Assembly: GCF_032854445.1 (NCBI RefSeq)
Contig: NC_088300.1
Location: 70,714,984-70,778,983 of the forward strand
Length of the DNA: 64,000 bases
Reading direction: 5' to 3'
Origin: Liolophura sinensis
Taxonomy: Eukaryota > Mollusca > Polyplacophora > Chitonida > Chitonidae
Program-made: the position numbers and the translations under genes
In this document: positions 2,110 to 62,079 of the stretch, one piece after another
Position numbering within the stretch: the first letter of the stretch is position 1
Layout: each line of letters opens with the position of its first letter
The notes under the pieces: model-generated
What the model was told of the DNA's origin: nothing
Database searches by the model: none
The model's input: only the letters and a program-made list of their open reading frames with translations

Positions 2110-5100
2110 TCATAAGTGAGATAACCATTTGATGGTGAAGGTGAGAATGATGAATGTTTTCAAGCTGAAGGATGACACAACAATGTTTGTTCCAGAACAA
2201 AACCGACTGCTGGCAACTTCAGGGATGCCTGAAAAATCTTTAAAGCTTCGGTAAACCACTCGGTCGTTCACAGGCTGAACTGGCCTGAAATTTGTTCTGA
2301 TACGTTTTCGTGGATTGTTGTGGGATCTGTGGTGGGAGCCTGACCCTGGGTGACCTACTACAACTCCCTCTGATGTCCCTGCCCCTCCATGATGCTCTTT
2401 CTTCCTCTTGTCATGACCACTGTCATAGCTTATACCAGATAGAGATTCAGAGTGATCCATTTGAAACATATTCCAAAATTTCTTCAACTGAAAAAAAAAA
2501 AAGTAAAGTGGAAAATATTTTTAATTTTATCTTGCATATAAATTGTATAAGCTGGAAGATGTGAAATTAGTATCTCCACAGCTTAACAGTAGATTTCTTT
2601 ACCCCCCCCCCCCCCTCCTCTCTAAAGCAATATATCTGTAAAGTCACTGTTTTCATTTATTTTCCTTGATATTTTTGCTGAGATTTTCTCATGGCAATGT
2701 GAAGGCTCACCTGAAAAGTTTAGTATACAGCTTCTCTTTGTTGGTATACATGGTAATAATTGTAGGTTTACTCAAAATTTTAGAGAAAGCCAAAAAATTT
2801 GTAAATAATTGGAACTTTCAGGATATTCTGCCACCCTGAAATCAAGATAAAACGACAAATTGTTACTTCTCAATAGTGATTTGATAGACGTACCTGTTTC
2901 TTTGATATTGTTTGGGGTTGTTCAAACAGAGTCCAGATGACACTCTCATGACAGCCAGGTGTGGTGAGGGAACCATTATACCTGTAGTAACGACTTTTGT
3001 CCTTAGGTAGGAAATACTTCACGGATAAGGGCTTTAGCTGAACCTCTTTGTCATCATCTGAAGTGTTCCAAACAATACCAAGCCACATTTTAAAAAATCA
3101 GTTTTGTTAAATCTTTGTATTAGTAATGAGTTGCACATTAATTTCCAGTGGTTTAGCTCCTGAGTTCACCCAAACATTTAAACATGGGTTTTGACGAATT
3201 TAAACTTCAAAGCACGTTTATCATATAGTCATTACCTTTTCGCATCAACCTAACTGTTGTTTATGTGTACTTTAATTCTCCAAATTTATGTAATATAAAT
3301 TTAAGTAAAATGGGAAATAAAATAAACCTTACTTGGATCCTCAACATGTTCCAAAGCATCTATAATAGTCTGTAGAACAGGATTGTCATCAGGAGCAAGC
3401 TGACAACATGAATAGATAATCAAACTAAGCAATCTGCATTTAGTTACTTCATAATTTTCTGAATTTTATAATAGTTATAATTACAACTTTGTTGTGATAC
3501 ATGTAATGAAATATGTACACGGTTTGGCAAAAGAAGCGCCTTAGTTCTGAGTGTAAACGTTCTTGATGACAACTAGATTACAACAAAATGTACTGATGTG
3601 GACATAATATTGTCTTTAGGGAAACCTAATTTGAATGAGAGTAGAATATAATACAATTATACTTTGTCAATAAGCTTTACCTCATAAAATACCCCAAACA
3701 CAGCCAAGCCGAGAGGCTGTGTCATTGCTTCTGTGATAGATGCATATGTCTCAGAGTCATAGTTCACAATATGTAGCTGCAAAGAGAAGCAAATAAACAT
3801 TATGTATTAAAATGAGTTATAAATATCATAAAAAAGCACACTTACTGACATGTAGTAAACAGGGCTGACAAGATGTTTTAAATGATTCAGCTTAGATTAA
3901 TATTAAGAACATTATTACAAATCGCTAATGTAAAGTGATTTTTGTCCTGATTCAGCCATATTCTGATCTCAGAATTGGAAGTTGCAGAAGAGTTTTGCTA
4001 GTACCAATCTGTAAGTTTTACAAAATGGAGATAATTCTTCAATGTCATTTATTGTGGAAAACAACGTGGAGCATTCCAGTGGTAGATTTTATAAGCCTTC
4101 CTTCAAAATCAGACTTCATCAAGAAAAAGTCCGCTCCTTGTATATGTTGTGTATACATGTAAATACAGGTAAATAATTGAAGAATGTGCATGAGTTAGTT
4201 TACGGGTTTTATTGTGATTGATTTGAGGGTTTCATGCTGATGGTAATAATTGGATTTCTGCTCCATCTAGTCTGGTCACAACTCTCTGTTTTAATAGGCT
4301 AACTTATACCTCTTTATTATTGATATCGTTGAGAAATAGATTTAAAATGCTTCATGTCACGCCAGTGGGAAATATTTTGAATTCAGAAGGGTGCCTTTAT
4401 GTCTGTTCCTTTAACTGCCTAAGCTGTCTTTACCCAATGGGGACCCAGGCTTTAACAGTTTCTCACTGTGTGCCCAGGGGCCCAGAGGTGGCCAGATGAG
4501 AAATTCTGCAATGACGTTTTGTCCTCCAGTAGGAGCCATTGCTAACCATGCTGTAAGGTGCATACTGTCTCTTGCCAGAGGCCGAAGTGAGGAATGGTCA
4601 AAGTTTTCCCCTTATGCAGCTGGAATAAAATCATACATATATTGGCCCGAGAGCAATGATCTGGCTGTTTTATGCACCCTTTGAGATTTCATGGGACTTT
4701 AGAGCTGACTTGGACCTCGAAAAACAGGAGCCAAAAGTCAACCTGTGCCCCACATTCTGATTTGTGTTGCCCTTGGGATAGACATTATGGACTTCCTTTG
4801 AATACGAACACCCAAGCTTTGTACCAATGAATAGTTATTTATTGTTACTTTTATTGAATATGGCTTTGATACTTTACTGTAGGCCAGTCATGTCTGGTGC
4901 ACTGCAGGTCTGATCCCTTGCATAGGAATAATCATGATGTGTATAGGTGATTCTCAGTTTGATACATGTATGTTGTTTACCTTGAAATATTTACAGAATT
5001 TGTGGTGTTTGAAGTTTAGTTGGAGAATTAAACCATTAGTTCTGCAGAGCTGTAAGTGTTTAAATATTGTGACATTGGCAGTGATGTAATGCTTTATCCA

Positions 5101-8100: not shown

Positions 8101-11100
8101 GGATCTATGCTTGTCCAGGGTGTACGCTTGTCCAGGGTATGTGCTAGTCCAGGGTATATGCTTGTCCAGGGTGTGCGCTTGTCCAGGATCTATGCTTGTC
8201 TAGGGTGTGCACTTGTCAAGTTTGTTTGCTTGTCAAGGTTGTTCGCTAGTCTTAGGTATATGCTTTGTCAAGGGAGTATGCTTGTCCTGGATGTATGCTT
8301 GTCCAGGATATATGCTTGTCCTGGGTGTATGCTTGACCAGGTTGTTTGTTTGTCATGGGTATATGCTTTGTCCAGGGTGTATGCTTGTCCTGGTTGTATG
8401 CTTGTCCAGGTTGTTTGCTTGTCTTAGGTATATGCTTTATCAAGGGTGTATGCTGGTACTGGATAATTGCTTGTCCAGGGTGTATGCTTGTACTGGATGT
8501 ATGCTTGTACTGGGTGTATGCTTATCCAGGATGTATGCTTGTACTGGGTGTATGCTTGTCGTGGATGTATGCTTGTCCAGGGTGTATGCTTGTACCGGGT
8601 GTATGCTTGTACTGGATGTTTGCTTGTCCAGGGTGTATGCTTGTACTGGGTGTATGCTTGTACTGGATGTATGCTTGTACTGGATGTATGTATTTAGTTT
8701 GTGTACTTGTCCTGAATCTATGATTGCCCTGACTGTACATGCTTGTTTGCCAAAATGAGAACTCAGATCGCGTTTGGGTATTTGCTTGCCCGAGGCAGGG
8801 CTTGAAATAACGCTTATCTAAACTCGCTCAGACTGGATGCTTTTCCTCGGTTGTTTACATTGAATGGTAAGTGCACCCCCTAGTAGGTGAACTCCCGCAA
8901 GTAAGTTTCATTTTGGTGATCGACTTTGCAGAAGTTCTGACAGAATGTTGGATAAAAAAGAAAATGCTACTTACTAAAGCCAACTATATCCTGTAACGCG
9001 GTAGACTGATTTTTTTCTTCGCCAAGGTAGCGATGTTGACGGAATATGCCAACTGACATAACATACGCAAAATGCAACAATGGCGAATGGTAGTGCTAGC
9101 ACAGTTAGACTTCTAAAAACCAGACTGATGGTGACATCAGTACATGTCCCTGCACATGTACATGTCCCTGCCGAGGTGTATGCATGTTCTTGGTGTATCC
9201 TTAATGTTTTGGGTGTATGCTTGCTACAACAGCTGGGATTACCTCAAGAGGATAAGCCTCACTGTCAACAGTGTGCTCAGAACCCAATTTATCGGAACCT
9301 GGTCCTCCCCAGTGAAAGTGAAATTGGACTGTCTTGTAGACTTTGGTAAGACCAGCGCCGGTGATGAAGTACTTCCCTTTCACATTCACTTGAACTGTAA
9401 CAAATGGTATCCAAAAGTTCGTGAAATTGGAATCAAAATGAAAAAGATGATCATGGCATGCAGTATATGACTCTTTTCCTGACATCATGTTACGTGGATG
9501 AAATAAATGAGTCTGAGGATTTTACATTACCAAATACACCGTTCCAAGTAATCATACTTACACAACAGTATCACTGGGCATGTTATGGTGAAGACCAGTA
9601 GTTCTGTTTTTAAATTGAGTGTTGCAAGTCAATGTTCATGAACTTCTCCATGTACACATATCAATTTTTGGATAAGTCACAGAAAATAGCACATGTAGAT
9701 GGCAGATTACAATGTTCGACAAAATATGATTCAGACTGTGGGTTTTACCTATGGAGAATTAATTATATGGATTTAGCTCACCTGTGTGCCCATTGTTCTT
9801 TACAGTCATCTTACTGCCAGGCAGGGGAGGGTCAAACCAAATGTTTACATCTCTGAGGTTTGCATCAAATCTTGTCTGATTTCGGTGGATGTTGATAGGC
9901 GACTGGTGTTGCCCATCACACTCTTTGTCAGGATACATTTCCGCCCATATCTGTGGTCCTTGTTTAATAAGAAAATTTATATCTTCAACGTAATTTGCAG
10001 CAGAGTCTGCATATGTCCTTTTGAAAAATGTAGTTAGAGTTTTTTTATTTGCACTTCCAGAATTCAGGTGAAACTATCTTTAAGGAGGTCTCAATATTAA
10101 AATTTTTATTGTAAAAAAAGCATAATGACTTCAGAAACGTCACATGTCTTTTAGCTGAAAATGAATTACTGTTTTTAAATCAAATTAAAGACACTTTAAA
10201 ATATTCCTTTCAAATTTTATTCATAAAATGAGCAGTTTGTCATTGAGAGAATTAGACATACCCCCAGCTCCTTCATATCCCCAATGGTGCTTTCTCTTCT
10301 TTTCTCCTAAAACAAAGAAAAACATTGGTTCATTGTTGTTTAACACACAAAATCAATGATATGCTTATTGTAGATATATGTTCTGATGTTGTAGAAAAGT
10401 TCTAAATCATTTCACAATCTCTTTGTTTAACTAGTCAAATTGTCTTCAATAGACAGTGGTCACGGACATGAATACATAAATAAATATGAATTTCTTGTAA
10501 GTGGATATCTCATTAAACACTGACATAATAATTATTTCTAAGGAAAGTTGTTTAGATTGAACCATTGGAAAATGGATAGCTTAAGTCACAACTATAACTC
10601 TTTCATGCCTTTAAAGTGCAAACGATAATTTGATCATGACAGAAACCTTGAGATGATAGCATGAAAATTAAATGTTCTTGAATGTTATTTAACCTAGTGA
10701 CACAGGTCAGCAGCAGGATTATTGCCAACTGCAATAGCCTTTGGCTATCACAGAACAGGAAATCCCTGCCATATCCTTTTGTTATCAAAAGCATCACAAC
10801 AATGAAGACAATCATTTAATAGTACAGCTTAACCATAATATCTTCCACAGAATGACAAAATAACTAGTTTGCCCGTTTGACCACTATTCCCACCATTAAT
10901 GCTGCAGAGAAACAAATTGCAACCTTTTATACTGCAATATTGAAACCATCAGTGAGAAGATTTCCAGAGGGCAGATTGTGAAGGCTTTATCTGGGTGTCC
11001 TGTTTAGTGTGTGAAATTTCCTCTTTGTTTGGTAGCTCTAGTGTGTACTGAGAACGACAGGAATTAGATTACTGGGTAATCTGATCCCTGAGTTCAGATC

Positions 11101-14100
11101 TGAGTACTATTGATTCCTGTTGGTCAGCTCCTGTGTACATGCAGCAGTTCCCGGCTTAAGTCGCTAATGTCCAGTGCATTTTGTTTGCTGCTACTATGCC
11201 AAAAATCTAACTATCTGCAGGCAGTACCCTGGTGTCGCAAACTTTCAACCATCACTTCAAATGCACCCTAATTTATATAGTTCCACTGTTAAAGGTTTAT
11301 TTTGAAGCCATCAGAGTGTACATGCATGTGTGACCCGTATTGCTAATATGTGATTTGAGATTTGAGAGCTGTCCATTGAATACCTGAATTGCCAGAATCC
11401 AATTGCACATGGACCCTTTTTTATAATTACTACAACATAATTGCATACAATTGAAAGTCTTGATGTTGGGATTCAAAACTGATTATCAGAGTTGATATTA
11501 GTTCCCTGAAGGCATAGGCTAGGAGCAGATACATCTTTCAAATTATGCATGAAATGTATGCCTATAGGGCATTGTCTTGAAACTATCAAGCAAATCTCTA
11601 GTTTAAGAAAAAGTTGTGAAAGTAGCAAACAGTGATGTGTGTTAAATATAGTGATAATCATAGTATTGTGATACAGTTTAGGTACATTTAGCCATACACG
11701 CCTGTATTTCTTGAAAATTTTGTTGAGAAAATCCTTGAAAAACATGTGTTACAGTTTTGCTGATGATTTCTGATGATGACAGATCACTTTCATTAAGCAA
11801 ATCACTAACTTAATGTTTCATCATGAACTTGATTCATGGTAGCTGGAGTTTATGGTAAAAGCTTTTACTGTTGGATTTTAGGCATGTTTTGTAGACAATT
11901 TTCTCTCTGGTACTGTGTAACATTGTTTAGTTACCCGATAACCTGAAGCTTCGCCAAACCCTGCGGCCATGGAGAGGCTGCACTGGCCTGAAGTTGTCCA
12001 CCATGTTGGGGCCATTGCTTCGACCACTGTTGGTTATCTCCTCTGGCATGGCTTCCGCCCCACCAGTTCCCACATCAGCACCTGTAGGTTTACTGTGACC
12101 ATTTGAATGAGGGTCACTGGGATTGTCCACAGTGTCTGTATGGCCGGTGATGTCATCATCCTTCTCTCTCGGAAAGAAAAGCTCTCTGAACTTTTGCATC
12201 TGTAATAGTTTGTGAAGCAAAGGTTAAACTTGCATTTGATAATAATTTACAGACATTCTTGAGTTAAACATGTTAAACACCATTTAAATAAGTAAATATA
12301 TGTACATTAATTTACGTGAGGTGAAGTGCAGCTTCCTGTGCGACAGAATTAAGTCTTTGTTAAGTATTAAACAGCAAAACATTTGTAATAACATGAGAAA
12401 AAAAGTATTCATTATGTAAACTTCCTTTGGTACCTGATCATAGGAGATTGGAAGTTTCTCGTCAAACACTGTCCAGACTACACTCTCGTAACAGCCCGGG
12501 GTGGTCAGGGATCCGTTGTACCTATAGTACTTGCTGGTATCATGAGGCATCAAGCTCTCGATGCTCACGGCCTTAACAGGTTGTTCAGTATCAGAGTCTG
12601 TTAAAGATGAATTATGTGTACATTCAGCATATGAAGAACTATGTGAAGGGATTTAGCCATTTCCTACACCAAGTGAAAATAAGATGTCAGTGCTTTTAGC
12701 ATTTAGGTGAAAACTGTACCTCTTTAAGACACATTTATAAAGACTGGAAATATGTTACATTAGATTTTTTTTTATCTACATAATAAAGAAATGATTTCTC
12801 ATAACTTCAAGCCATCATCTAGTCTCTGTGAGTATTGCCTTTCTGTTAGAGGAAGCCAATAGCTCACATGTTGTTATGGCTATCTGTAAAATGCCACGAA
12901 ATCCCCCACACTAAAAGGAAGGCCCTGGCCTTTCCTGCTTTCAAAGGTTTATTGACCTCAGACTTGGGGATTGCTCAAGATGTTCCTATTTCGTTTAGAC
13001 TTGGTAAAGCTAGGCATTAAACAGGCTCAAGGAACAGCTCAACATATCTCACGATTACAAAGCTTAAGGCAAAACAAATCAGGTTAGATGTATCCAGATT
13101 ATTGATTGGCTCACCTGGGTCTTTGACATGTGGAAGAGTCTCCAGGATTGGCTCAAGAACTTCATTGTCTTCTTTAGACATCTGCAAAAAGAAATCATTG
13201 AAACTTTTTTTAAAGAGGCCTTTTGAGTTATCACTTATTCCACATCATATGAATCTTGCATTTGTACATGTACATCAAAAGAAGTCTGATGTTTGAATAT
13301 AAGTCATGAAACATTTACATTCGTATTTTCCACAGTTGGCTGAGAAAGCCAAGGGTTAAAATATCATCAGAAATGAAAAAACGGATTTACGTATGTCTAA
13401 GGCCGCTATACACATGTAAATAAACAGAATTATACACAAATTTCTTGTGTTTTTAAGTTACAGTATATATATAAAAAATATTTGCATAATTTATGTCCTA
13501 TTACAGTAAAGGGTAAATACATTGTATATGTATGTGTATAAACAGTACACTTGTACTGATTTTGTCCTTGGTGAACTAACTGGAATGTGCCTTCAGACAT
13601 GTATATTATGGTAGAGTTGAAGTATATCACTTGCTTAATCATTGTTCAATCATTAAAGGTTGTTTAGATAATAATCAGGAATGTGTGAGGTTTAATCAAC
13701 CGTAGGATTGAAACTGTGATTGTTTGTTGTTGACATGGACGTAGAGGTCTTGCCCCAGGCACTTCAGCCTTCTATTCGTTACCATTTTTAGGTCAACTGA
13801 GAAATGTTTTTCCGCCAGGCAGGCAAGTCACTTAGTTGGTAGCCATGCTGATTACCCTTAAAGCAGCTAATATACTGGCCTATTCTTATCAGCAGGTCCC
13901 CTTATTGATTATGGGAAGGGGATTCTTTCTTGACAGATTGAAGGCACATGACCTTGTGATGTACTGCAGCTTCTCAATGAAAAGCTTTCATCTTGCCCAA
14001 CAAAATTCAGTGTGAAATACTGTTTAATCCCCCCCTCTGGCATTCTCATCCTGACCCTTGGTCACCTCCAGTGTAAACGTTTGGACATCTTCCAGATTGT

Positions 14101-17100
14101 TGACATATAATTGAATTCAATTCATCCCCTTGTATTTTTCAAGAAGTAGTTCGATTGTCAAACAGTTACTTTTCTTATTTCCATTTGAGGACAGAAAAGC
14201 AACATTTTCATGACAATTTAGTATTTTAATAGAATGCTGTGATAATCATTAAAGTGGGCATAGTCATTGTGAATTTATGTGCATATCCGACATAATTTAC
14301 AATCCTTAATGTGCTTGTTCCATCTTTTAAGTGTGGAATAATAAAGTATGGTTAAGTGTGGATATTCATTATGGCATCAAAAATCATACCACAATATGAC
14401 TCAAACATCATTCATTCATGTCATTTGTTTGACCACCAATTGTAGTATGCTATGATCTTATTTTGGACAACACAACATTTTGATCCCTTTTTTGCTAGAG
14501 ATAACCTATATAAAGGTAGTTAAAACATGTTCATACATGTACTTCCTTTTCAAACTTTGAACTGACAAGGAAAAAACTTTTTTGTTTTCCACAGTTTTGA
14601 TTGTGTGAAGATACTGTAAATGTGTTGCAAAGTGTGATTTCTGTTCTACAGGTAGAGTAAAAAACACAGAAGAGACAGTGTTTTTGTCAAATCCCAGTGC
14701 CACATTGTCCATCTTTCTTTGTGATGTAATGTCTTTTAGCGTGTAAATAATGGAGATGGGTAACAGCTAAGGAGATCAGGCAATATCATATATTCTTCAT
14801 CAAAATGGGAAAAAAAGGATATGTCCAGATTGAGGTTTGTCTGTTTTCTTTATGGATTACACAGGGAGACCATTGTAAAAAATACCCTGCATCGTATACA
14901 TAAATGATTGTATAGCCAATGTGAGTATGTGTATCATGTGTGGTTATTTGTCCAAAACAAAAAAACTCCGCCTTCTGTAACAGTGTATTATCATGTCATT
15001 AATCTACTGCTGTACATGGTGGATGTGATCGGGAATGTTGCAAACACATCAGAAAGAAACTTTTTGGGTTTGTAATAGTGTTATTTTGGAGGGTGTAACA
15101 TGACACAGTGTATCTACTTACATAAAACAGCACCCCTAATACGGCCAGTCCCTGGGGTTTGTCAATAGCTTCCATGACAGACGAGTACTTTGAATCGTAA
15201 TTCACCACATGAAGCTGTCGTAAAAAAAAAAGTGAACGCTTGTGAAGAAGGAGTACAGAATAACGAGTTTCTCAGATATGTCATTAGTTAATGTACATTA
15301 CTATCACTGCTGGATGGCGTAGAATAATTATTAAATTGAAGAGCTTCAGCTTGATCTTCATATACCTTTATGTAAATAATACCTGTATTACTATCATTTG
15401 TACATATATGTATTTACATGTAAACTGCATGATGTTTTCTCCTGTTATGAGAAAATTTATCAGGCCTCAGTTTCAGTGTTGAAGTATTTGGTTACATGTG
15501 TATAATCATGAACATATTATACTTTGACAAGCTCCAGAGGGGTGATAATCACTATACTGTAAGAATTCATTTCTTGGAACTTGTAATCATATCTGTCTGT
15601 AATGCATGACCTCACCACTATACAGGTATGATGGCATAAATTTGAGGTGATGCACCTATTTGTTTGACTTTCTACATCTTGGTCTATGAGACTCCAGTAT
15701 TGGCTTATACCTTGAGCTTTCCTTTATTAGCATTATACTTTGTTTTGGTTTGGTTGACCATTGTCAAATTGTATCTAGTTATATTAACCAGAAATCGGCA
15801 TGCTAATGTTTCACGCTCGTGAATCCCCAGCAGGCATATGTGCATCAGCTGTGAGTTCCTTTGTTAGGCCTAATCACAGGATGTGACACACCAATGTGAC
15901 TAAAATCCATCAACCTATATTAAATGCCCTAGTGACCATTGACAGCGAGGAACCTGCCAGTAAAGCTGTCTGTCCCTTTGTCAAGAACTGAGGCAATTCC
16001 ATTAAAAAAGGGATATAAATTCTGAGAAAGGAGCCTGTAACAAGTCCAGCTGCCCAGCTGTGTCAGTGAGAGGGTTAAACTGCCAGATTACAGACACTAT
16101 CAAGAAGTGCAGACTTGTGGGGGTGGTAGCCGAGTAAATGAACGCTTGTGGATCATCCTCCGTAAACCATGTTACTCACTAGACTGGAAGAGAAACCCTC
16201 ATCCTTTTTATCTACCCACAACTTTTCCTCTTTCATATCTCTGGAATTAGCTTTAAAGTTAAAAGGTTTGCTGTTCTAACAATAGTACAAGTAGCAATGT
16301 TGAGCACATGTTCCATTAGGTGGTTTGGCATTTCACTTTAGTTGTGGTTATTCATACATGTACATGTACTTGCATATAAACATTCAGGAGTTATTCCCCT
16401 TGATCCCCCTGTGAACAGCCAATATTTGAGATTTGAACTTGAGAAATAGATGTCATATTTTATTCTATAGCATGTAATGCACATTGCCAAAATTCGTGAA
16501 CAGTTTTACCTACAGAAGTGGGAATATATAAGATTAGTGGATTATTTCGATTGTAGACGAATTGAAAAGCCTTTAATTTTACTTCATGTTTCTCCACCCA
16601 TAAACCTTATTGCCACGGTTCAAGGGGAAAATTCTTTAAGGTGGTGTTTAATACAAATGAAATAAATCTGATGAATAAATAAATGCCGAGCTTTCACTAC
16701 TTATGTGTGAAGTTTTATTATTGTAAATCTGTACAACGCTAAATCTGTGAGACTTGTAACACATGTAACACATCAAAAACGACATTTTAGACTGCAATTT
16801 GCTCATATTAAATCGTGCTATAATCCAAGATTGCTGAAGTTTGTCAGTTTCAGATATCACAAAAAACTTAGTCTTATTATTGTAAAAGAAAAATAAGTCC
16901 TTTTCAGTTTTAACATTTTAATATACTTTACTGAATTGCCATACCTCCAGTGGGAAAGCTTGTCCATCAACAGTGTGTTCCGAGCCTTGGTGTTCAGTAC
17001 TACCCCAGTGGAAATGTAATTGGAGTGTCTGGTAGGTAGAAGGTAGCCCTCCCCCATAAACATAATGAACACCGCTATTCATTGTCACTTTCACTGAAAT

Positions 17101-23100: not shown

Positions 23101-24651
23101 ACTTACTGTTTCAGCAGGATGTAAGCTAATTCTTAAAAACTTCAAACAAATTTTTGTAACTTAATCACTTTGTCTTATTGTAAACTGCGCTTTGCAGCCC
23201 ACTGAATATGAAGCCAAGAGAACATAATCTAGGTTTACAGGATACCAAATAGAGTTATCTTCCCTTGTGGTCTTCAGCAAAACAGCACGTCTGCACTTAG
23301 CAATGTGGATTATGAGATCCTTACTCTTGGCTATGAGAGAGAGATGGCAGAAAGTTATGTAGCCATTTGTACAATCTTTTGTAGATTAACAAAAAATCAG
23401 TTTGGTCTCAATAATCAGAAATCAAGAACATAAAGATCTCAAAGCTTTTTCAGTGCATATGTACATAGACGTTCATGGATGATATATAGCAGGACATGCA
23501 GCAGATTCCTACCTGACGTTTAGAAATGTATTGTTTCTCTTCAAAAACTGTCCACACGACACTCTCATAGCATCCGGGAGTTGTCAGAGAGCCATTATAT
23601 CTGTAGTATCTGCTTGTGGAGCTGGGGAGAAGGTCCGTGAGGTGGAGAACTTCTATGGATGTGGTGTCTTTCTCATCTGTAGAAGCAAATGAATGAAGGT
23701 ATAGACAGATTTGTTTGCATCAGCATCTGTAATTCTTCAACTTTCCAACATGGACTGATAGCTCATTTTTTGAGATCTGAAAACATTTTTATATAATATG
23801 AAGGTCTTCAAAAATCACATTGTACGTCCTTATCATTCCAATATTTGTGTTAAGGAATGTCAGTCTCATCTTGAAACTACAGAACGTGAAAACATGTTTT
23901 TGCAAATATAATAAGTGTAGAGGGTTTTGTGCTTAATAAAGAACAAAAACAAAATGATAATTCTGTAGAGCGAATGTTGTTTTATGATATGAAAATGCCA
24001 CTTAATTCCTAACCTGGATCTTTGACATCTTGTACAGCTTTTAAGATGGGCTCCAGTACTGGGTTATCATCATCTGAAATCTGGAAAAGGAAGAGTACAA
24101 GGCCTGTCTAATTCTGGACCAAAGTCAGACATCCCAGACAGAATTATATTAAAGCCCTGGTTGTCTATGATAAATGAGTTTCATGAATCGGTACAGTAGG
24201 ATACAGGGTTCTGCCATGTCTATAAAACTCTGCCTGTCTGCCACCCTTAGTGTATGGAAGGCCATTTCTCAATCATTACACTTATCACCATGACCTGATG
24301 TTCCAGTTCTATCATCACCTTAAAAATAGATTTCTCTCACACTGAATCTGTAAGGAAATCTCTGCCATGATCAAGGTCACGGGTAAAGAACTCTCTCACA
24401 TCACCGTGCAGACATCACACCATATGTAAGTGCTTCAATACCATATTTCACTTAAAGTTTGCTATGTTAAAAAAGCACTTTCATTTTCAATTTACTTTAG
24501 TCACCAATGCATGCAGCCATACAAATGAATTTATGGTGTTTATAAACTTGGCAGGTATGTAAACCCTAAGGGGTTCATTATATCCCAATATAAAATAAAT
24601 TATGGTGTATTGATACCTATAGACTCAAAAGAGTTAACACAAATGAATTTT

Positions 24652-24705
<54 letters not shown>

Positions 24706-27700
24706 AGATAATAGTACCCATTGTATCTGTGGCTGCACTGTAAAACAAGTAAACGTAACGCATGTAAATGAGATGAAGTTCCACAGGCATGAATCTTTTT
24801 TAATTTATTTATTTATTTATTTGATTGGTGATGTACTCAATAATATTTCACTTATACAACGGCGGCCAGCATTATGGTGAGAGGAAACCGGGCAGAACCC
24901 AGGGGAAACCCAAGGCTATCCGCAGGTTGCTGGTAGACCTTCCCACTTACGGCCGGAGTGGAAGCCAGCATGACACAAGCAAATATAGATGGTGTATTAC
25001 AAGTATAACATGATGTGGTGGCTTATCAAGTGTGCATGCCTCGGGGAAGAACCTGCTGGTTCTCTGATCAGTGCATGTATCACATTGGTTAAATCAGATT
25101 GTGTTATCATAATAAATGGTCTCGCCTGTTCATCCCTACACAAACTCCCTCCTCAGCTGCTGTCTGCTTTAAAGTCCTCTTGCAAGTAACCCATTGCATG
25201 TTCTGATGCAGTCTGATCTGTACAGCTTGAGTAGTGTCTAGTTAACTGACACATTTCAAAGCACATTATGTGATGATTTTTCTCAGCTGTATACCACTTT
25301 TTTACCACTGAGTTGGTTAATCTTTTGTCGTATTCACAAAAGAATTCACTTTGAAGGGATTCTTTCCCTGCTAATTTAAATTAAAAATTATCTTGAAACA
25401 GTAGTGTTTGTGAAAAACTAACAGGGCAAACAGTGTAAAGCTCAAACAAGACAAGAACCAGTATGGTAAAACTGAAATCACATCAGTAAAAAAATTGGAC
25501 AGAATGACCCCTTTGTTGTGATAGTTTGTTGGAAAAACTTTTTTTGCTGTTGTGCCATTTATGCAAACAGTGCCTGAGTAGTTATTGTTTTGTAACATAA
25601 TGTATATCATGTAGAGAAACAAGTACATACATGACTAAAAACATTTCATGTTGGGAAAAAAAATCAACCCTTCAACTGTGCAAATGGTAACTTTGGAATT
25701 TTATTGATCCATATATATATAAAGATACAAGCATGGGTTGCTGTTTTGCTGACTGGCCTACATACATGTATAGAATTTAGCTTTAATACAAAAAGGTGCA
25801 GAAAAACAATGAGGATCAATGTACATGCATGTATAAAAGAAGGAATCTTTGTACACATATATATTTGTACTCCATTCATCAGATGAACTTCACCCTGACT
25901 GTGTGTATTGCTGAGTACCCTAGAAAGTGCTGTTGAGTAGTCCAAAAATTGCTTGTTGCACATGAAAATAGTCATAACTGGGCAAGGCTCTGAAGTAGTT
26001 TTGATTTTAAATATATACATATGTCTGATCAAACAAAAAACCATTAATCCATCAGCAAGGTATGAAATTTTTAAGTATATTTGGTTGTGTTTATTTCCAC
26101 TGTTATTGATTATATTCCTCCAGCTATTTTGCCAAGATGGAAAATACTAGGATTTTGATTAGGAACCTAGTATACTTACTGTGTATAATGTTCCCAGCAC
26201 AGCCAGCCCCATGGGGCTCTTCATAGCTTCTCCAATAGATGAGTAGTTCATGTAATCATAGGCAACAACATGGAGCTGGAAAGCGAGGAAATGATTATAC
26301 TGCTTTACAGATTATTTGAGAACAAAATAAAGTTCATTTTGCCATGGTAGGAATGTAAACTTATAATAAGTGGAGCGCTTAGCATTGTTATGAATTTTAT
26401 TGGCCACACATTACCAGTGGCAGAAGTCATCAGTCTTAATGGCACCATCTGTGGTGATGTAATGAAGTTAAAGTGCCTGTATTCCTATTCACACAGAACA
26501 ACTCAGAATGAATAAATGGCTGGGGTTTGTTGCCGCAGTGACAGTATTTCAGCCTTATCGTGGGGACAAAAGTGACATGGAAACAGCAATGCAAACATGC
26601 ACGTACAGACGTTAGATGCTCTGATACTGTGGGAGCGACAGGTGCAAGCCAGACGTGCTGGTTTCATGTCAGGCTCTTTTATAGCTCATTTATAGCCTGC
26701 CTGCATGATATTGTTTAAGTGCGTTATGTGAAATATCAATTACATAAGAAACGTACGTGAATAAATTTAATGGTATGTAAATGGTATGTTGCAAATTTTA
26801 AATTGAAGCAATACACATATGGTATCGTCATATGTTTCAAAGAGCATTTCTGGAATGCATTGTAATTCTCATTACAACCTACCTCCATAGGATATGAATG
26901 ACCATCAATCTGATGTTCAGAGCCTTTGTGGTTGTTTTTTCCCCAGTGGAGATGGAACTGGGCAATCCTGTAGTTACTGGGCAACCCTCCCCCCAGTACA
27001 TAATAATCACCAATTGTGTTTACTTGCACTGTGGAAGGAAAGTGGTCAAGTGTTTCTGTCAGGTTTCCTCTCACCATAATGCTGGCCCCCATTGTAGATG
27101 GGATATTTATTATTTATTTCTTTATTTATTTAATTTGTATTTTACACCGTACCAGTACTCAAGAATATTTCATGTGCTCGATGACCAGCATTATAGTGGG
27201 AGGAGACCAGGCAGAGCATGAGGAAAACCAATGACAAACTGCAGGTTGTGAAATAGTCTTCAACAAGGCCTAAAACAGCAGTGAAATAGCCAAATACAAC
27301 TGCAAATGTGGTCAATATTTCTTTCAGTGGCACTGAAGAATTAAAGACATCTGGGTATGTCTCAGAGACATCGCAAGCAAAATAAAAAAAAAACATACTG
27401 TTGAAGATGGGATTTCAAATTTGGGTTACCAGACATTGCAGTTCCACCATTCCTGGTTATACAAATTATGCTGACATTGAATTGTGGTATCATCTTAGGA
27501 GTAATTAGCAGTGATGGCTTTGCCATGTACACCACATCATTTAGGGCTGACACTGACAACTACCCTTTCTTAAAATATGAATGACACCACTTCGGTGTCA
27601 GTCTAATGTGACAGGGTGGGGTGTCATGTTTGGTCTTTTTGGCATGATACTTCAGTGGTGGTAGCACTTTGGCGGCATAGACTCTCCCTGCCACAAGAAG

Positions 27701-30700
27701 ACACAATTTATATACACACACACCTAGTGCCTCCTCATCATCATAAGACTGAAAATTGGTTAAGTGCAATGTTTTATCCCAAGCAAACATAAATATGTAT
27801 AATTTGAATGAATGGACGAAACCTTTTTTGTAATCGGGGAACTCTACATGATATGTCAAGACTTCCAGCATTTCAACTCTATTTCCTACAGAGTTAGTAA
27901 ACCTGATGAGAAACCTAAAATGTGTACCACTTTAGTGGAATATTTTATGTTGACAACAAATAGATTCTAACCGAAATGGATCCAGAAGACAGTTAACAGT
28001 TTTGTTTGATTCACAGCTCGAAAACAATGCAAGGTTTGTCCTACATGTAGTTCATTCATCAGTCTGTGTGTACTTACGTGTGTGACCATTATGTATGAGG
28101 ATCATCCTTCCCACAGCGTCATGCGGCATTTGTAAGTGGACTGCCGATAAGGAGGAATCAAACTGTGCGTGATCCGTGTCCACGTTGATTGGTGACTGCT
28201 GCCGGCCACGGCAGTGTTTGAAGTGCTCCGGCCATTTGTGGTATCCTGTTGCGATATGACATGTATTTTAAAATTTTGTGAAAAAAAAATGAGAAAAAAA
28301 AAAAAAACTCACAATTCTGCTTCATGATTGTGCTTCAGCTTAGAAACAATTTGAATACTGAAACAGCTATTTGTGGCTAAATGAATTTGTCAGAAGCTTG
28401 TCAGAACTTTCCATTATTGAGGCCAGAGTAATTTCAGCCCCTTATTGGATACAGCTGTGCCCTTATACTGGATGCCTATTATGATAGAACTTAGAATTTT
28501 CTCAATTATGTTGCAAAATATAGCAACAAACTGAGATGTACAGCTAGAGATATGTTTTTTTTATAATGACCAGTGATGCTTACCTCCGGAACTTGAGCTA
28601 GATCTTGTAATAGACGGCAATCTTACCCTCATATTAAATAAAACAAAATTATTTTATACATGGTGAAAGTGTTTTTCAGGTTTAGCCAACTTTAAAGTGT
28701 AATGGTATGGATAACCTTTCTTGAATCCAAGCCTTATGGACTGTGTATGCATTAGGATGAACGTAAATTGTAACTCTTTATTTTCAGAGGGTAAATTTAC
28801 AAAATGAATACTGTCAGTTTAAACCGTTCTTCTCAGAGGTCCCCCAAGACATGGGCATGAAACCTTTCACAGGGTTTTGTTTGCTCGCACTTGTGACCAA
28901 AACAGCTTTAAGAGCTACATAACTTTTCTTACACATAAGTACCATATTTTGTCTGTCTGCTTTACGCATCTTATGTACTCTTTCAATGTTATATTCTCGG
29001 CTGCAAAGAAGGAAGGTGCCATTTCAGCTGATATGGATATGCACTGCTGAAATTTAGATGTGTTCTTAATACTTTTGTCTTCAGATATTTGCACAGTCCA
29101 ATATTCCAGTGATGCATTTTAGACATGTTAATTGGCCCTATTTGAACATGTGGACAAACTGATAGAACTATTATATCATTGAAGCTCTAAAGTCAAGGTT
29201 GGTGTTGCTTGCATCGGTGTGTGAAGATCAAATTGACAAGATTGTTGTGGTACAACTGAACACCTGGTGTTTGTAGCTTTCCTGCTTATTCTTTTGACAT
29301 GTAAGATCCATATGTTAAACAGCTACTACTTTCTTACTGTCTTTCAGAGCTGCATGGACAGAATAAATCTCAGTCTCAAGGATTGCTTGTTAGGCCGGTT
29401 TAGGCTTATAGTAGTGTAGTATAGGATTTGTTGCTCAGAGACGAATTTCCTCTATGCTTTCCAGTTTGCCAAGGATACATGTACATACTTGGTCGAGGGG
29501 TCTAAGAGCTTTTCTGTGTGTGTATGTTTGGGTGGGAAGGGGGATGGGGGTGGGTTAAGGTCAGGAACTTGAATTTTGTTGGAGGTAAGACTTTAAAAAC
29601 AACATACATATGTATCTCATTGCCCTGTAAGATTTTATGATCCCAATAATCACCTTGACCAATTCAACTGTAAACTACATGTGTATTGTACAGGTACCAC
29701 TAGTACAGATATTGTACAAGTACCACTTATACAGGTATTGTACAGGTACCACTTATACAGGTATTGTACAGGTACCACTCGTACAGGTATTGTACCGGTA
29801 CCACTCGTACAGGTATTGCACAGGTACCACTTGTACAAGTATTGTACAGGTACCACTCGTACAGATATTGCACAGGTACCACTCGTACAGGCATTGTACA
29901 GGTACCACTAGTACAGATATTGTACAGGTACCACTTATACAGGTATTGTACAGGTACCACTCGTACAGGTATTGTACAGGTACCACTCGTACAGGTATTG
30001 CACAGGTACCACTCGTACATGTATTGTACAGGTACCACTTGTACAAGTATTGTACAGGTACCACTCGTACAGATATTGCACAGGTACCACTCGTACAGGC
30101 ATTGTACAGTTACCACTCGTACAGGTATTGTACAGGTACCACTTGTACAAGTATTGTACAGGTACCACTCGTACAGGTATTGTACAGGTACCACTAGTAC
30201 AGATATTGCACAGGTACCACTCGTACAGGTATTGTACAGGTACCACTTGTACAAGTATTGTACAGGTACCACTCGTACAGGTATTGTACAGGTACCACTA
30301 GTACAGATATTGCACAGGTACCACTCGTACAGGTATTGTACAGGTACCACTTGTACAAAATCCAAAAAAATACCCTTATTTACTTATAAATCACATTAAT
30401 CAAACTACCGGGGTATTAAAGTGTCTTACCACCCGGATGATCTTCAGTATATTTACACATGCACATACTTCTGTTGATTTTAAGTTGTTAGAAAATTGCA
30501 GTTTGTTCTTAAGAGTCTGGAATGTGGAAATCCTGACACATGCCCTTGGCATTGTGTCTGTATATGAACAGGAGTGTGTTCTCAAGGCTTTTGTAAGCAC
30601 TGTGGCACCAGATCGGTTAATGTAAACCTAGACAAGTGGCCATCTAGGAGGGTGAATGGTGAATTAGCCTTTACTAGGTAAACACTGTAGTCATTCAAGT

Positions 30701-33700
30701 ATCAAGGGATGGCCACATGGCTTCAGCTTTAGACTAGGTCACCCCGTTCTTCTGGGGGCTGCATGACTTAAGGTACGGGGATTTTTGAGTCACTGAAAGT
30801 GAACTACTTGTCTGTAGATTCATATTTTCTTTGACATGAAAAACTTGGTAAGGGAGACCTTAAAAAGCATTCAAAAACATGCCTTATTAGGTATAAAAAT
30901 AACTTGAAAAGAAGCATGGAAGATTTCCTTCAAAATGTGAAGTATGTTAAAATATGGTAAATCCTAGCAAACCATCAAGGAAAAGGATATTATTAAATAG
31001 TATAGGGAGTGAAGTATCTGATAAACGATGAGACGTAATACCATCGATGCCAAGGAACGACATTTTCAGCGAAGAACCACTATTTATATCAGAAAATGAT
31101 TAAAAATTGACTCTCAGGAATTTAAGGGATAATCTGTGAAAGACTTTTTTTTCTGTAATTGTGTCGCTCAAGCCTGGGGTATTATACTTGTATATATACC
31201 AGCTCAAACTTTATACCATTTGCCTGTGTTCATGACCAGGTGTCAAATTTTTTAGGTGACATTATTACATGTATCACTGGTTCCTGAAGCCGCCAGCATG
31301 TTAACTTGGTGAATACTAGTTAAATTTTGCATTTAAATAATTGCATGTTAAAAGTAGTTGCCATGAGTGCAGGGATGCACTTACAAAATGTGAAAGTGGA
31401 CTTTCACTCTTTGGTTACTAGTATTTGTTGATCATTAATATTTCTGGGCACATATCACGCACCTAATGTGATTAAACCAAAACTTGATTGTGTCAGGTGA
31501 CTAGGTAACTTAATTGAACCTTCAACATATGGTCAGGGCCTCTGTGGCCAAGGAGATTAGCGCAGTTAACATGCCGGTTTTGTGTTTTCTTTAAATTTAA
31601 GTCTAAAGCCAGAGCCCAACTTTATCCTGCCTAAAACCACCTTATCTTGTTATCATGTCGCATTTCTCAGGTGAAGCTGTATACATATTTTTAGTGTGGA
31701 TGTTGATCTCTTATCTTTAGTGTTACCTGTATCTAGTGGTATGTTTACCCTGCTGGAACATTCAGGTCAAGCACAGATGTTACAGGTCACTGAGGTCAAG
31801 GACAAACTTACCCTTTTCGCCTGAATAACTCCAGTCCACAGATAAAGCTGAAAGTGAAAAAAACAGAAAGAACCAACATTAAGACAATAATAAAAAAGCA
31901 GAAACGAAAGTGTATTAATATGAATAAGTGTCAGTAAATTTATGTTCATCAGAGCATAACTTTCCTGCACCTAATTAATTGTTGAAGTGAACTCCTGTCA
32001 GTTTCTGACGCGCTTGCTATGAAAGTCGCTCACCCATGAGATACCCGTGAGTTCACGTCTCCCGGTCATGAAACTTTTGGCTTAAGGGTAACTAGTAATA
32101 GCTGTATATTCATTTAAATTCATTCATTCAAACCTCCATAGCAGATTAAGAAGCCCTTCCAATGTCCCTCTTAACAATAACCTGTTCAGTTCAACTTTCA
32201 AATGAAAGCCGCATCCGTTAGGTTTATTATTATTGGACTTATTAACAACAATTTGATGGCTTTGGCTTGTGACTAAATGTCACCAGTGAAGCATGATATC
32301 CGTGAGTTTTGCCCTGTTCCAGACTACATTGGTCATGACAATTCTTTGTGTGCAGCCTAAAGTACCAGTTATATCCAGGACCAGCTTTTTGCATTGTGAC
32401 ACCAAAAGTAACACTGGACTGTACCTTGGAGGAAGCTTAAATTACACATGTATAATCATTGCAGGTCATCAGTGAATTATTTTGATGTCTTTGATTGGTG
32501 TTGTACGCTATTTCTTGTATGATGATGGCCAGCTTTATTGCGGGGAGGAAACTGTCCGATGGAGACCCACTTCCATCCACAGGTTACTGATAGATAACCT
32601 TTTTAACACTGACATATATTCAAATATATGAATTCCTTTGAAATAATAGTCCTCAAATTTTGAATAAATTCAAATATGCCTTGTTTCATGTGCATCATCT
32701 CATTGTATGTAAGTTGATTCTATGAGAATGTTGTAGTATTTAACAGCATTATCGGTGGCAAATAGCAGTAAATGAAACATAGACATGGAGTCAGCGATTA
32801 GAAAGAGTCGTCAAGACTGTTCAGGTTTAATGAGGTATAATAATTGCATTCGCTTGAGTTCAGAACCCTTGAAATATTACAGCTTGAAGGCAGGAGAATT
32901 TATAATGATGACACAGTAGATCTGATTTGAGAGCCTGAAGTATGACCTGTGGGTTATGGGCGAACAGTTTACCGTAGACAACTTACCAGCATTTTATTCA
33001 CAATAAAATGCACTTTTCCTTTATGAGTGGACTAAGATACATTTTAAAAAATGTAAAAGCATTGACAACTTATGACAGATATGTTAAGGAGAATGACTCA
33101 TGTCTAAATGCTACAAATAGATGGCAATTAGACTGCGTGAGAAATCATGACTTGTAGGAAGATACTTGGGTAGTCCTGCAAGTTACTTTAAGAGTTGTTA
33201 ATTCAGATACATGTAAGAGTGCATGAACATAATGCACCTCAATTGTGTTGTTTTTGGAGGCTGTAGCCTACTGTTTTCACCTTGGGATATGAACTTGATA
33301 TTATACGCAGGAATTGATCTGCAGAATGTGGATTATGTGCCTTTTGCAGTAATATTATATCTCCCTAATCTCAGGTATGAACTGATTCTTTAATAATTAT
33401 GTTCCTGCATGAGGAAAACAACATCATAATTATGAAAGTTGAAACTGCCTGTTCTGCCATTATGCTATGGCCCCAGCATAAAACCACTGTAAATTATACC
33501 AATTATAGATCTGTGTTTTACAAAATCTGTGAATTTGCGATGAGGATGGATGAAGGAGACACTTAATTCATCAGGCAAATTGTGTATGTTGGCTGCCCAA
33601 CATGTGTTTAAATGAGTGTTGTGTCTTTTTTCTCCTTTCCTGAGAATCTGGCACATATTTCACTGAGTAGGGTTAAAAAAAGAAGGATCACTTCTACTTG

Positions 33701-36172
33701 TGCTCAATACACTGTGTGCTTAAGTGAAACACTTGTTACATTATCTTTAAATTTGAGATCACAAGTATCATTCTTAATGATAACAGCCAGTGCATCAACA
33801 TGCACTTTTAAAGGTAGTAAACAAACTGAAATTGGGTGCATTTGTATAACAGAATCATGTTGTTACAGAAAAATTTAATATGAGCTGAAACATCAGTCTG
33901 ATAATGTTTAATTTGTGCATTGACATGCCCTGGCAAGTTGTGGCCTGAACTGCTTCCTACATCTTCATGGTTGGCAAAGTTACTTCAGGCTTTGCATATT
34001 GCTTGTTCCTCTTGGTTTAGAAACAATGCAAATATTAATTGCAGTTTAATACAGTGTCTCTGGATAACATGCAGCTTAATCTAGTTTTATAGGGTATGCA
34101 TATGCTGCTAGGTACATGCGGTGTTGTATCTGAAACAACTTTTACAAACTCAACAGTGAGAAATAAAGCACACTGATCTGTTTACTCTGACTAAATCCTT
34201 CCTGGGATTTGTTGTAAATTACATGAGTGAAGTTGCACAGGTGTATATACAAGTAGCGCGCGGAATGGCCTCCAGCACTGACAATTGCATGGCGTTAGTC
34301 ACGTCTTCACATTGCAGTTTGAGGATTAAAACAACTGCCACCAGTGTGCAGTATATCATTGCAGTAGTTGAAGGGTAGTCTGTTGTACTGCTCAATAAGG
34401 ATATGATTGTCTGGTATTTATTTGATACTAGATAAGCTGTTGGTATGAGAATCATTACTGGTAGGCTTTTAAATTATATCGACCTAGGCTCTTTTGAACA
34501 TTTCAGGAGCTAAATCATTTGAAACTGTTAGCTTTGAACTATAAATAAAAAAATTCAAGTTTAAATGTCAAGAGGAAAGCTACTGGTAGTGTTTTGTATT
34601 GAGGTACACCTTAACACATGCTGCCTACAGACGTATAGTGTCTCATGGTTAAGTCCACTTGTACGTGTATGTAAGAAAAATCCTGTTAAAGACATAAACT
34701 TTCATTGCTGTACCTGAAACCATTAATTGAAGCAGTTACATGTTCATAGTATGGAGTATAGGTTAGTTTATGTAAATGGACAAATTCGTGTTTCTGCTAT
34801 GTGTCTTTCACTGTTAACTTTATCACAGTGTAAGGCCATTGTTTGTTTGCACAAGTGTTTCATGTCACATGGGTGTGATTTTAATGTCTCTTGGGTGTTA
34901 CATTAATGTTGCAATGATGTTTAAAGGTGGTAAGTAATTACACTACCTGTTCAAGGCAAAAAGTTGTGTGCAAAATAAAGTATCTTCATGTTAGATTAGG
35001 ACTGTATGGAAGCAGACAAATTCCCAGAAGATTATCCACGATGTGACTTTTTTGCATAGTGTTGCTAGTTTTGTGGCTACAGCGGACCAGTCTATTTATG
35101 AATCTGGTGACCTGACAAGCTGTTTGATGAGATGTGCATTACCTCTAACCATGGTCAGAGATGTTAGCGATATTGGAATGCACGAACCAAATTCTTTCCC
35201 ATGCATGGCCTTATTTAAAGGTGCACTGAGTGAAGTACAAGCTGGTACCTGGACTTAAGATCTTTGTTGACAGGGGTCTTGATAAAAAGAGCTGACATGT
35301 TATAAGGCTTGGCTACCACATGTGTATCGTCATAATCAGGTACACGCTTATTACAAGGCAATAAAGCTATAGGTGTAAGACAGAGAGACCTAATGGACAA
35401 GTGTCAGTTTCAATATAGGAGTTTTCTTGATGTCTGGCATACCTGTCTCAGTAATAAATTTTCAATTGTCATGCAGGAATTGGTGCATTTGTGTTAACAG
35501 TAGTATTATGAAAATATTAATGGCCATTGTTAGAAAGCAAATGTATAGCACATGGATTTGTATACTGACTACATGGTTTGTAAACCAGGCCTTTTGTATG
35601 TGTCCTTTAGTACAGTTTGTCCATTGCGGTCATTAACATGTATTGCTTGCTCTTTTTATTCTTTAATTGTTTGTATTAGTATTCATACCCATGAACTTTC
35701 AGTTCAGGCTATGTTAGCTACAGTTAGGTCTGTTTAAATGTAAGAAAACAACAGTGTGCTTATGTGTGATACCTAATTGAAGTTAATAGAACTTATAATG
35801 GATGATTTCTCTCTAACTTGAGATCAGTGCTGTATATGGAGTGGTTTTTCCACTTTGTTCTATTACGTTATCTATATAAATCACAACTTCGTCTGGAGTC
35901 TATCCTGTTGCATTTGGCATAGAAAAAAGTCTCTCACATTGACTGTAATGAGAATAGATCTGATGCAGGTATGGAGAAAAGCTACATGGAATGCAGTTTT
36001 TCTTTAGGGTCACTCTGTGCAGATTGACCAATCTTGCCAGCAGTGATTATCATCAGTAAAATTCAAATCTGCATTTAGGAGGAATGAATTTTAAAAAATT
36101 TAACCTTATCTTACCTGTGTTTGGCAAGTAGAGAAGTCCCACAACCAGTAATACAATCAATGACTGCTCCAT
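2110..36172 (-). CDS. Secreted four-domain alpha-carbonic anhydrase
   Basis: The protein should catalyse reversible hydration of CO2 to bicarbonate, outside the cell or on its surface. I joined 28 exons (high to low): 36172-36115, 31847-31812, 28245-28078, 27028-26883, 26275-26180, 24080-24014, 23676-23513, 22842-22695, 21677-21615, 20855-20679, 20510-20350, 20056-19961, 19343-19113, 18768-18561, 18146-18087, 17859-17692, 17093-16945, 15214-15122, 13181-13115, 12597-12434, 12199-11935, 10306-10262, 9958-9782, 9394-9243, 3776-3681, 3399-3333, 3057-2894, 2487-2110. Their sum is 3864 nt, exactly 1288 codons with stop, and every junction is GT/AG. Residues 1-19 are a signal peptide; four alpha-CA domains span about 32-290, 310-605, 620-925 and 940-1240; the last 25 residues are hydrophobic. 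Zinc ligands are H113/H115/H138, H405/H407/H430, H709/H711/H734 and H1028/H1030/H1055. A usual alpha-CA is about 260-330 residues, so this is four enzymes in one chain. No intervening stop, promoter or new signal peptide separates the domains. A gene prediction that splits it into several genes cannot be fully excluded without transcripts. Confidence 0.9.
6026..6355. mobile_element. Foldback (palindromic) element, about 330 bp
   Basis: Two arms of about 150 bp are inverted copies of each other. The innermost 26 bp (6145-6170 against 6178-6203, around CATACGCCTCTCCGCT) pair perfectly around a 7-base loop, and the outer ends (CATGGGGAGGAAACCACC against GGTGGTTTCCTCCCCCTCATG) also match. It has no coding capacity. 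It fits a non-autonomous foldback element or MITE in intron 24; I found no clear target-site duplication. Confidence 0.75.
7681..8700. repeat. 17-bp minisatellite in intron 24
   Basis: About 60 copies of the unit TGTATGCTTGTCCAGGG with variants (GTACTGG, GTCTTAG, GTCAAGG). Because the period is 17 and the unit has no stop, it reads through in several frames as a 17-residue repeat, giving apparent proteins of up to 275 residues. These frames overlap each other on both strands and have no gene features, so I treat them as artefacts. Confidence 0.93.
11935..18146 (-). other. CA domain 3 (exons 15-21)
   Basis: This is the third alpha-CA domain, starting with the very basic linker [14 protein letters not shown]. 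It has [19 protein letters not shown] (H709 and H711), [12 protein letters not shown] (H734), [20 protein letters not shown] and [11 protein letters not shown]. Exon 21 carries an insertion of about 50 residues rich in Asp, Gly, His, Asn and Ser between the catalytic core and NFRPVQP. I chose the donor at 11935 (TCGG/GTAAC) rather than 11943 because only it keeps the phase 1 needed by exon 22. Confidence 0.88.
18561..21677 (-). other. CA domain 2 (exons 9-14)
   Basis: This is the second alpha-CA domain, with [19 protein letters not shown] (H405 and H407), GSEHHV, MHIV (H430), [20 protein letters not shown] and [11 protein letters not shown]. It has six exons where the others have seven: exon 13 (19343-19113) joins the two segments that are separate exons in domains 1, 3 and 4, so one phase-1 intron has been lost here. 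The domain ends with a longer Asp/Asn-rich stretch before NYRPVQP. Confidence 0.9.
20967..21374. mobile_element. MITE-like element with about 60-bp terminal inverted repeats (copy 1)
   Basis: The left end (around CACTCTAAAATGAAGTATG and GATGAAAGACCATTAAAA) recurs inverted at the right end (TTTTAATGGTCTTTCATC, CATTTTAGAGTGGTC). The element is about 410 bp, non-coding, and lies in intron 9 of the carbonic anhydrase gene, beginning about 110 bp from exon 10. A diverged copy in the same orientation lies at 51607-52040. Confidence 0.8.
22001..22590. repeat. 74-bp tandem array, 8 copies
   Basis: Eight copies of a unit of about 74 bp containing ACCAAACCTAAATATAG, TATTTAAAACA and GGCAAAGATCTAC. Copies are nearly identical, which suggests recent expansion. 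It occupies intron 8 of the carbonic anhydrase gene and ends about 105 bp from exon 8, between domains 1 and 2. Confidence 0.92.
24656..24702. repeat. (TA)n microsatellite
   Basis: About 23 TA dinucleotides in a pure run, within intron 5 of the carbonic anhydrase gene. Confidence 0.95.
24799..24985 (-). mobile_element. tRNA-derived SINE, 3' part (Meta-SINE-like)
   Basis: On the minus strand this reads through a core with ACCCGGTTT-like and CACCATAATGCTGGC words, then CACCAATCAAATAAATAAAT at the tail. The same core and tail recur at 27052-27245, 38170-38422, 44490-44712, 47213-47342 and 63690-63775. The family name is from memory of molluscan repeats; the shared sequence is what I see. Confidence 0.7.
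25011..26179. other. Intron 5 remainder, nothing recognised
   Basis: AT-rich intronic sequence between a SINE and exon 5 of the carbonic anhydrase gene. Open frames here on both strands overlap and have no splice or protein support. Confidence 0.5.
27052..27245. mobile_element. Two abutting SINE fragments in opposite orientation
   Basis: A plus-strand fragment (27052-27110, GGTTTCCTCTCACCATAATG) is followed by a minus-strand fragment (27097-27245) whose T-rich tail and CAGCATTATAGTGGGAGGAG core are the inverse of the same family. The plus fragment starts only about 25 bp from the acceptor of exon 4, within the likely polypyrimidine/branch region. Confidence 0.65.
29680..30358. repeat. 26-bp minisatellite in intron 2
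   Basis: About 26 copies of a 26-bp unit containing TACAGGTACCACTCGTACAG and ATT(G)TACAGG variants. The unit holds GGTACC and GTAC palindromes and no stop codon in any frame, so it reads through on both strands as artefactual frames of about 210 residues. It lies in intron 2 of the carbonic anhydrase gene. Confidence 0.93.
31848..36114. other. Intron 1 of the carbonic anhydrase gene
   Basis: This intron separates the signal-peptide exon from the mature protein. It contains a SINE remnant at 32480-32605. I see no other exon or element that I can support. Confidence 0.6.
32480..32605 (-). mobile_element. Degraded SINE fragment
   Basis: Minus-strand remnant of the same SINE family: TTTGATTGGTGTTGTACG, then GGCCAGCTTTATTGCGGGG and AGGAAACTG on the plus strand correspond to the inverse of the tail and core. 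The A-rich tail is lost. Confidence 0.5.
36115..36172 (-). other. Exon 1: start codon and signal peptide
   Basis: The ATG at 36172-36170 opens a 19-codon exon reading [19 protein letters not shown], a short polar start followed by a hydrophobic core, typical of a secretory signal peptide. The donor is CAG/GTAAG and leaves the frame in phase 1, which matches the next exon (31847-31812, [12 protein letters not shown]), whose W-SY-SG motif is the usual N-terminus of an alpha-CA. This is the only signal-peptide exon I found, which supports one gene rather than four. Confidence 0.8.
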
Positions 36173-62070: not shown

Positions 62071-62079
62071 ATAGACCAG

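Follow-up and report, generated by a model that had tools for sequence, protein, structure and literature searches.

According to the giant-clam paper of 2018, the tandem alpha-carbonic anhydrases (CAs) of animals were known at that time only with two domains and in symbiont-hosting clams, and two-domain alpha-CAs are described there for Tridacna, Phreagena okutanii and Dunaliella (PMC5879104). As presented in that paper, the DDCA of Tridacna squamosa and the tgCA of T. gigas have a signal peptide, tandem alpha-CA domains with catalytic residues and a C-terminal anchor region, and one of the two domains of DDCA, a protein of 601 amino acids, was proposed to be intracellular (PMC5879104). The MCACO2 of Phreagena okutanii, as told in the same source, has 594 amino acids, with two alpha-CA domains outside the membrane and a C-terminal transmembrane or GPI site, and it was proposed to serve the carbon supply of symbionts (PMC5879104). 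A chain of 1337 amino acids with four tandem alpha-CA domains has been described in a red alga, Pyropia yezoensis (alphaCA15; also P. umbilicalis, Pu-alphaCA11) (PMC7423979).

Regarding chitons, one carbonic anhydrase is named as a possible shell gene in the first genome paper (PMC7850002), carbonic anhydrases have been reported from the plates and spicules of Acanthopleura loochooana (Liu et al. 2024, as cited in PMC12046283), and a term search did not find carbonic anhydrase in the main text of a comparative chiton genome paper (PMC12005716). Our literature search, with subscription journals and preprints outside its reach, found no four-domain animal CA among the matches listed. As far as this search shows, we found no earlier report of a four-domain alpha-CA in animals, the two-domain animal forms and the four-domain red-algal forms being already known.

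The locus described here lies in a window of 64,000 nucleotides (contig NC_088300.1, here C6, at 70714984-70778983) from a chiton whose assembly was published as L. japonica (PMC11068029), the species being later corrected to Liolophura sinensis (PMC12441733). We consider it likely that this locus is one chiton gene, produced by in-frame tandem duplication and encoding one secreted, probably anchored chain with four extracellular CA sites. The gene occupies the minus strand from 36172 to 2110 and consists of 28 exons (Table 1) that add up to 3864 bases, that is, 1287 codons and a stop in a single open frame. All its introns (27/27) start with GT and all (27/27) end with AG, and the stretch contains 0 N.

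Table 1. Exons of the four-domain carbonic anhydrase gene in coding order, with positions given in the window.
Feature	Position	Strand	Remarks
Exon 1	36115..36172	-	initiation codon plus signal peptide; phase 1 at the end, with donor GTAAGAT
D1 e0	31812..31847	-	WSY exon, phase 1-1
D1 e1	28078..28245	-	QSPIN, NGHT
D1 e2	26883..27028	-	FHLHWG zinc histidines, GSEH
D1 e3	26180..26275	-	third zinc histidine, LAVLG
D1 e4	24014..24080	-	
D1 e5	23513..23676	-	SLTTPGC
D1 e6	22695..22842	-	His-rich loop, NFRPVQPL; ends in phase 1 at donor
D2 e0	21615..21677	-	linker exon with WSY, without signal peptide; one in-frame ATG
D2 e1	20679..20855	-	
D2 e2	20350..20510	-	LHFHWG
D2 e3	19961..20056	-	EMHIV spans splice
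D2 e4+e5	19113..19343	-	fused exon, intron lost
D2 e6	18561..18768	-	ends in phase 1 at donor
D3 e0	18087..18146	-	linker exon, 414 bp after D2 e6
D3 e1	17692..17859	-	
D3 e2	16945..17093	-	LHFHWG
D3 e3	15122..15214	-	ELHVV spans splice
D3 e4	13115..13181	-	
D3 e5	12434..12597	-	SLTTPGC
D3 e6	11935..12199	-	long His/Gly/Asp-rich loop; ends in phase 1 at donor
D4 e0	10262..10306	-	linker exon
D4 e1	9782..9958	-	
D4 e2	9243..9394	-	FHFHWG
D4 e3	3681..3776	-	ELHIV spans splice
D4 e4	3333..3399	-	
D4 e5	2894..3057	-	SLTTPGC
D4 e6	2110..2487	-	loop rich in His and Gly, end of the domain, then hydrophobic, GPI-like tail and stop

A first spliced-profile alignment, obtained with an incomplete profile, gave 26 exons and 1060 amino acids, lacking the three interdomain linker exons, truncating the last exon of D1-D3 and splitting that of D4. 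The model was completed by reading the domain ends and searching for the absent WxY exon ahead of each domain, and the alignment was then repeated on a profile built from D1-D4 themselves, a gene break being allowed at a cost. This second run returned 28 exons and 1287 amino acids as one gene, a result that is partly circular because of the origin of the profile. In a Pfam scan of the joined protein, Carb_anhydrase (PF00194) was the only family found, in 4 stretches and with 1080.5 bits against a cut-off of 27. Each domain is made of exons e0 to e6 with intron phases identical across D1-D4, and D2 alone deviates in exon number, since the loss of one intron has fused its e4 and e5 (231 bp = 67 + 164). 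Chance is excluded as the source of this arrangement, because the four Carb_anhydrase stretches come from an independent scan and the intron phases recur in all four domains. The original prediction, made from the letters of the window, was reproduced in its exon number, codon number, limits, uninterrupted frame and lone signal-peptide exon, and its four tandem CA domains were recovered by the profile scan. Of four polyadenylation-signal words sought downstream of the gene within the window, AATAAA is absent; five copies of ATTAAA, from 1687 on, and a single TATAAA are present. The window gave no Rfam match at gathering scores.

The four domains also retain the residues expected of active enzymes. 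Using the usual residue numbering of CAs, the canonical residue was found at 19/19 checked positions in 4/4 window domains, a state reached by 7/30 domains in the genome overall, including only 3/26 of those outside D1-D4; all three zinc histidines are present in 18/30 genome domains. For instance, the three zinc-binding histidines together with Thr199 and Glu106 are found in the four domains (4/4), and residue 117 is Glu in all of them (the acceptor CAG lying outside the coding sequence). Nine cysteines occur in the chain, two per domain at the positions of the Cys23-Cys203 pair of extracellular CAs (4/4 domains), where a disulfide is predicted, and one in the tail. As each domain keeps the full zinc site, the proton shuttle and the extracellular-type cysteine pair, each should be active extracellularly, interconverting CO2 and bicarbonate outside the cell, in agreement with the earlier description of the domains as apparently active. 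The best solved-structure matches, obtained with a rough join of D2 without its last exon as the query, were to CA XIV and CA IX (1rj5, 3.1e-44; 4lu3, 5.1e-44; 6rqn, 3.5e-41), and, at the checked positions that these structure chains cover (17/17), their residues are those of D1-D4. The vertebrate CA XIV and CA IX have a single CA domain.

Hydropathy points to one signal-peptide-like segment for the whole chain and to a hydrophobic C-terminal tail, where a 19-residue window from residue 1263 has a mean of 1.61; no 19-residue window starting at residues 8-1262 reaches a mean of 1.4. The membrane-anchor-like tail noted earlier is thus the only segment besides the signal peptide to reach 1.4, but its hydrophobicity is modest. 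Probably, the tail is a GPI-attachment or membrane-anchor signal, and a single-domain CA paralogue on C10 ends in a tail that looks alike and lies in the corresponding exon. As the signal peptide and the tail are the only hydrophobic segments and the cysteine pairs are present in all domains, the four domains should share the same, outer side.

By description, the chiton chain is like DDCA and tgCA in its signal peptide, its tandem domains with catalytic residues and its anchor-like C-terminus, and like MCACO2 it is tandem. However, it has four domains instead of the two of either clam protein, its cysteine pair is found in all of them, whereas one DDCA domain was proposed to lie inside the cell, and a hydrophobic segment of the DDCA type, splitting the sites across the membrane, was not found by the hydropathy window, which is a simpler test than TOPCONS, the predictor applied to the clam protein. 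The Pyropia protein is also likened to it by description, but its origin is probably independent, as it belongs to a red alga.

Nacrein is another molluscan CA with an inserted region, a Gly-X-Asn repeat described as lying between CA subdomains (PMC11291548) or, in other words, between two CA domains (PMC3374290). By contrast, the chiton inserts, read by eye from the sequence, are rich in His, Gly and Asp and are located in the last exon (e6) of each domain. A nacrein-type insert was considered for the e6 loop and rejected, since the repetitive region of nacrein is placed between consensus domains V and VI (PMC6639325) and its composition is different.

Although the frame is continuous, tandem clusters of separate-looking CA genes exist elsewhere in this genome (C1 and C6), and the locus could, in principle, consist of four separate single-domain genes that have been misread as one. 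The spliced-profile program is of little help here: in a control array on C6, it joined separate-looking CA genes through poor exons, and the case for one gene thus rests on the exons, the phases and the intervals and not on the program. The interdomain introns measure 1017, 414 and 1628 bp, and each contains one locus of an in-frame, phase 1-1 WxY linker exon with an acceptor and basic linker residues; as several alternative exon ends are available at each of these loci, those with the best sites were taken. The positions near 21.7, 18.1 and 10.3 kb, where a separate first exon would have indicated separate genes, are precisely those of such exons, which have no signal peptide. Additionally, a scan for signal-peptide-like first exons found 0 in the three intervals with its first limits, while recovering the true one at 36172. 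Chance would likewise yield zero (shuffle means of 0.05-0.09), and the count speaks against separate genes only because each of them would need its own signal-peptide exon.

With looser limits, two nested, weak candidates with poor donors appeared at 11446 and 11410, in the third interval (D3-D4), and they may be counted in favor of separate genes, as may the stops that an unspliced read-through of e6 reaches in D1-D3 within 24 codons of the donor. The whole-strand scan with the first limits gave one further signal-like site at 12412 (nested start 12394), but it lies between e5 and e6 of D3, in the wrong place for a start of this domain. Against separate genes, one of the intervals measures only 414 bp, and the extracellular cysteine pair of all four domains leads one to expect that each needs secretion, whereas the signal peptide stands only before D1. 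Altogether, we regard four misread genes as very unlikely, and a single tandem multi-domain CA gene, secreted and with four apparently active domains, as the best reading of the genomic frame, the splice sites and the intervals.

A related explanation accepts the single gene but adds alternative transcripts to it, so that shorter forms would accompany the four-domain chain (e.g., D2-D4 translated from the ATG of D2 e0, or products ending after D1, D2 or D3). Shorter products are conceivable because that ATG is in frame and the read-through tails that follow e6 in D1-D3 are short. However, the cysteine pair of D2-D4 is of the extracellular type, whereas a chain started at D2 would lack the signal peptide, and an internal promoter has no positive support. 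Consequently, such additional forms seem unlikely, and, together with the polyprotein considered below, they are the main rivals of the single four-domain product.

In the polyprotein model, convertases would cut the basic linkers (PKK, TKRKR and EKKRK), releasing three soluble CAs and leaving an anchored fourth. In fact, all three interdomain linkers have at least two adjacent basic residues, and every domain is complete and self-contained. Nevertheless, the furin pattern R-x-K/R-R was matched nowhere in a scan of the chain, the D1-D2 linker offers only KK, and adjacent basic residues are also found inside the domains, where cleavage would be destructive. We thus judge this processing to be quite unlikely and retain an uncut chain as the preferred product.

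Pairwise identity among D1-D4 is 45-51%. Codon positions 1 and 2 are identical in 55-72% of cases and third positions in 32-38%, and fourfold sites are identical at 121/369, summed over the six domain pairs. As protein positions are conserved while silent sites are near random, the domains are old copies, all four kept by selection, and these patterns indicate that this purifying selection has been long. The same data bear on a possible assembly artefact, in which a single CA gene would have been repeated four times. Tandem copies can indeed be mis-joined in assemblies, but the divergence of the domains refutes this explanation, third positions being near random and the stretch containing no N, so that we consider it extremely improbable.

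In a tree of 24/30 modelled genome CA domains and two structure chains, D1-D4 form one clade (support 97/92), whose internal branching order the tree does not resolve. The domains have a common origin, and in-frame tandem duplication is the most likely way in which the gene arose. Both borders of the domain module are in phase 1, as is the end of the signal-peptide exon; as a consequence, the frame is preserved when further copies are inserted, which offers a simple reason why fusions of this kind could recur.

In fact, the same genome contains a second CA fusion in another clade. Of the carbonic-anhydrase Pfam matches in the genome, counted exon by exon (at least 108), 14 are in the window, on the minus strand and in four sets. 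On C11 (7550328-7561400, that is, 7.55-7.56 Mb), at least two CA domains are fused, exon 7556289-7556478 ending one and starting the next. The fused domains b and c are sisters (100/99) and stand apart from the D1-D4 clade; unlike in D1-D4, the first cysteine of the extracellular pair is missing from the aligned position. In a neighboring C11 domain (7.542-7.547 Mb), the first zinc histidine is changed to Arg; this domain seems to be terminated by a stop codon of its own.

Other loci were observed in the course of this survey. Two near-identical, clustered single-domain CA copies are found on C1 at 91.138 and 91.207 Mb (L017 and L018; branches of 0 and 0.0069), and both have a Glu aligned at the proton-shuttle position. 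The C7 domain and 8/9 of the C8 domains keep one zinc histidine and look like inactive CA-related proteins, and, in the C8 and C7 loci (L019-L028 and L031), one or two zinc histidines are missing in 10/10 domains modelled; inactive proteins of the CA-related type may thus have expanded in this chiton. On C6, the copy at 14863510-14867685 (L004) looks degraded, with a stop inside the match and the LTTPPC motif changed to LITPLC.

Regarding the function of the four-domain gene, we propose that it would yield one chain of about 145 kDa, presumably from a single transcript, which the signal peptide would direct into the secretory pathway. The four complete alpha-CA domains would follow, joined by short basic linkers, and the hydrophobic C-terminal tail would act as the GPI-attachment or membrane-anchor signal, so that interconversion of CO2 and bicarbonate by each domain outside the cell would provide four active sites per anchor. 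Most likely, the product would be a secreted enzyme held at the surface and speeding CO2/bicarbonate exchange at an epithelium, such as that of the mantle, the girdle or the gill, where it could participate in calcification, acid-base control, gas exchange or CO2 supply. A more ambitious proposal would see in it an ancient, fully active four-site extracellular CA, conserved across chitons or beyond, in which protons would be gathered and handed on by virtue of the His-rich loops and of sites held at fixed distances, forming an anchored local relay of CO2, bicarbonate and protons at a mineralizing or gas-exchange surface; we find this version doubtful. In any case, a four-domain chiton form with all its sites intact would show that tandem CA fusion is not confined to symbiont-hosting clams, and the gene provides a test case for whether active sites linked on one anchor improve CO2/bicarbonate exchange at a mineralizing or breathing surface.

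Several repeats were observed in the introns of the gene. Minisatellites with 17-bp and 26-bp units, located at 7690-8690 and 29683-30357, make long spurious open frames, and the D1-D2 intron contains a tandem array of a 74-bp unit (21998-22590; 95% matches) that covers 593 of its 1017 bp. The long plus-strand open frames in the introns (7.6-8.8 kb and 29.6-30.4 kb) were rejected as genes, as they lie on tandem repeats; six had no Pfam match over the cut-off. Upstream of the CA gene and on the opposite strand, plus-strand frames at about 47820 and at 52609-53961 could be parts of a gene for an inositol phosphatase with a Sac domain, a family marked by the motif CLDRTN, which is present here. 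Finally, repetitive plus-strand frames of a short unit (HAQPWK...) at 61935-62874 probably correspond to a minisatellite.
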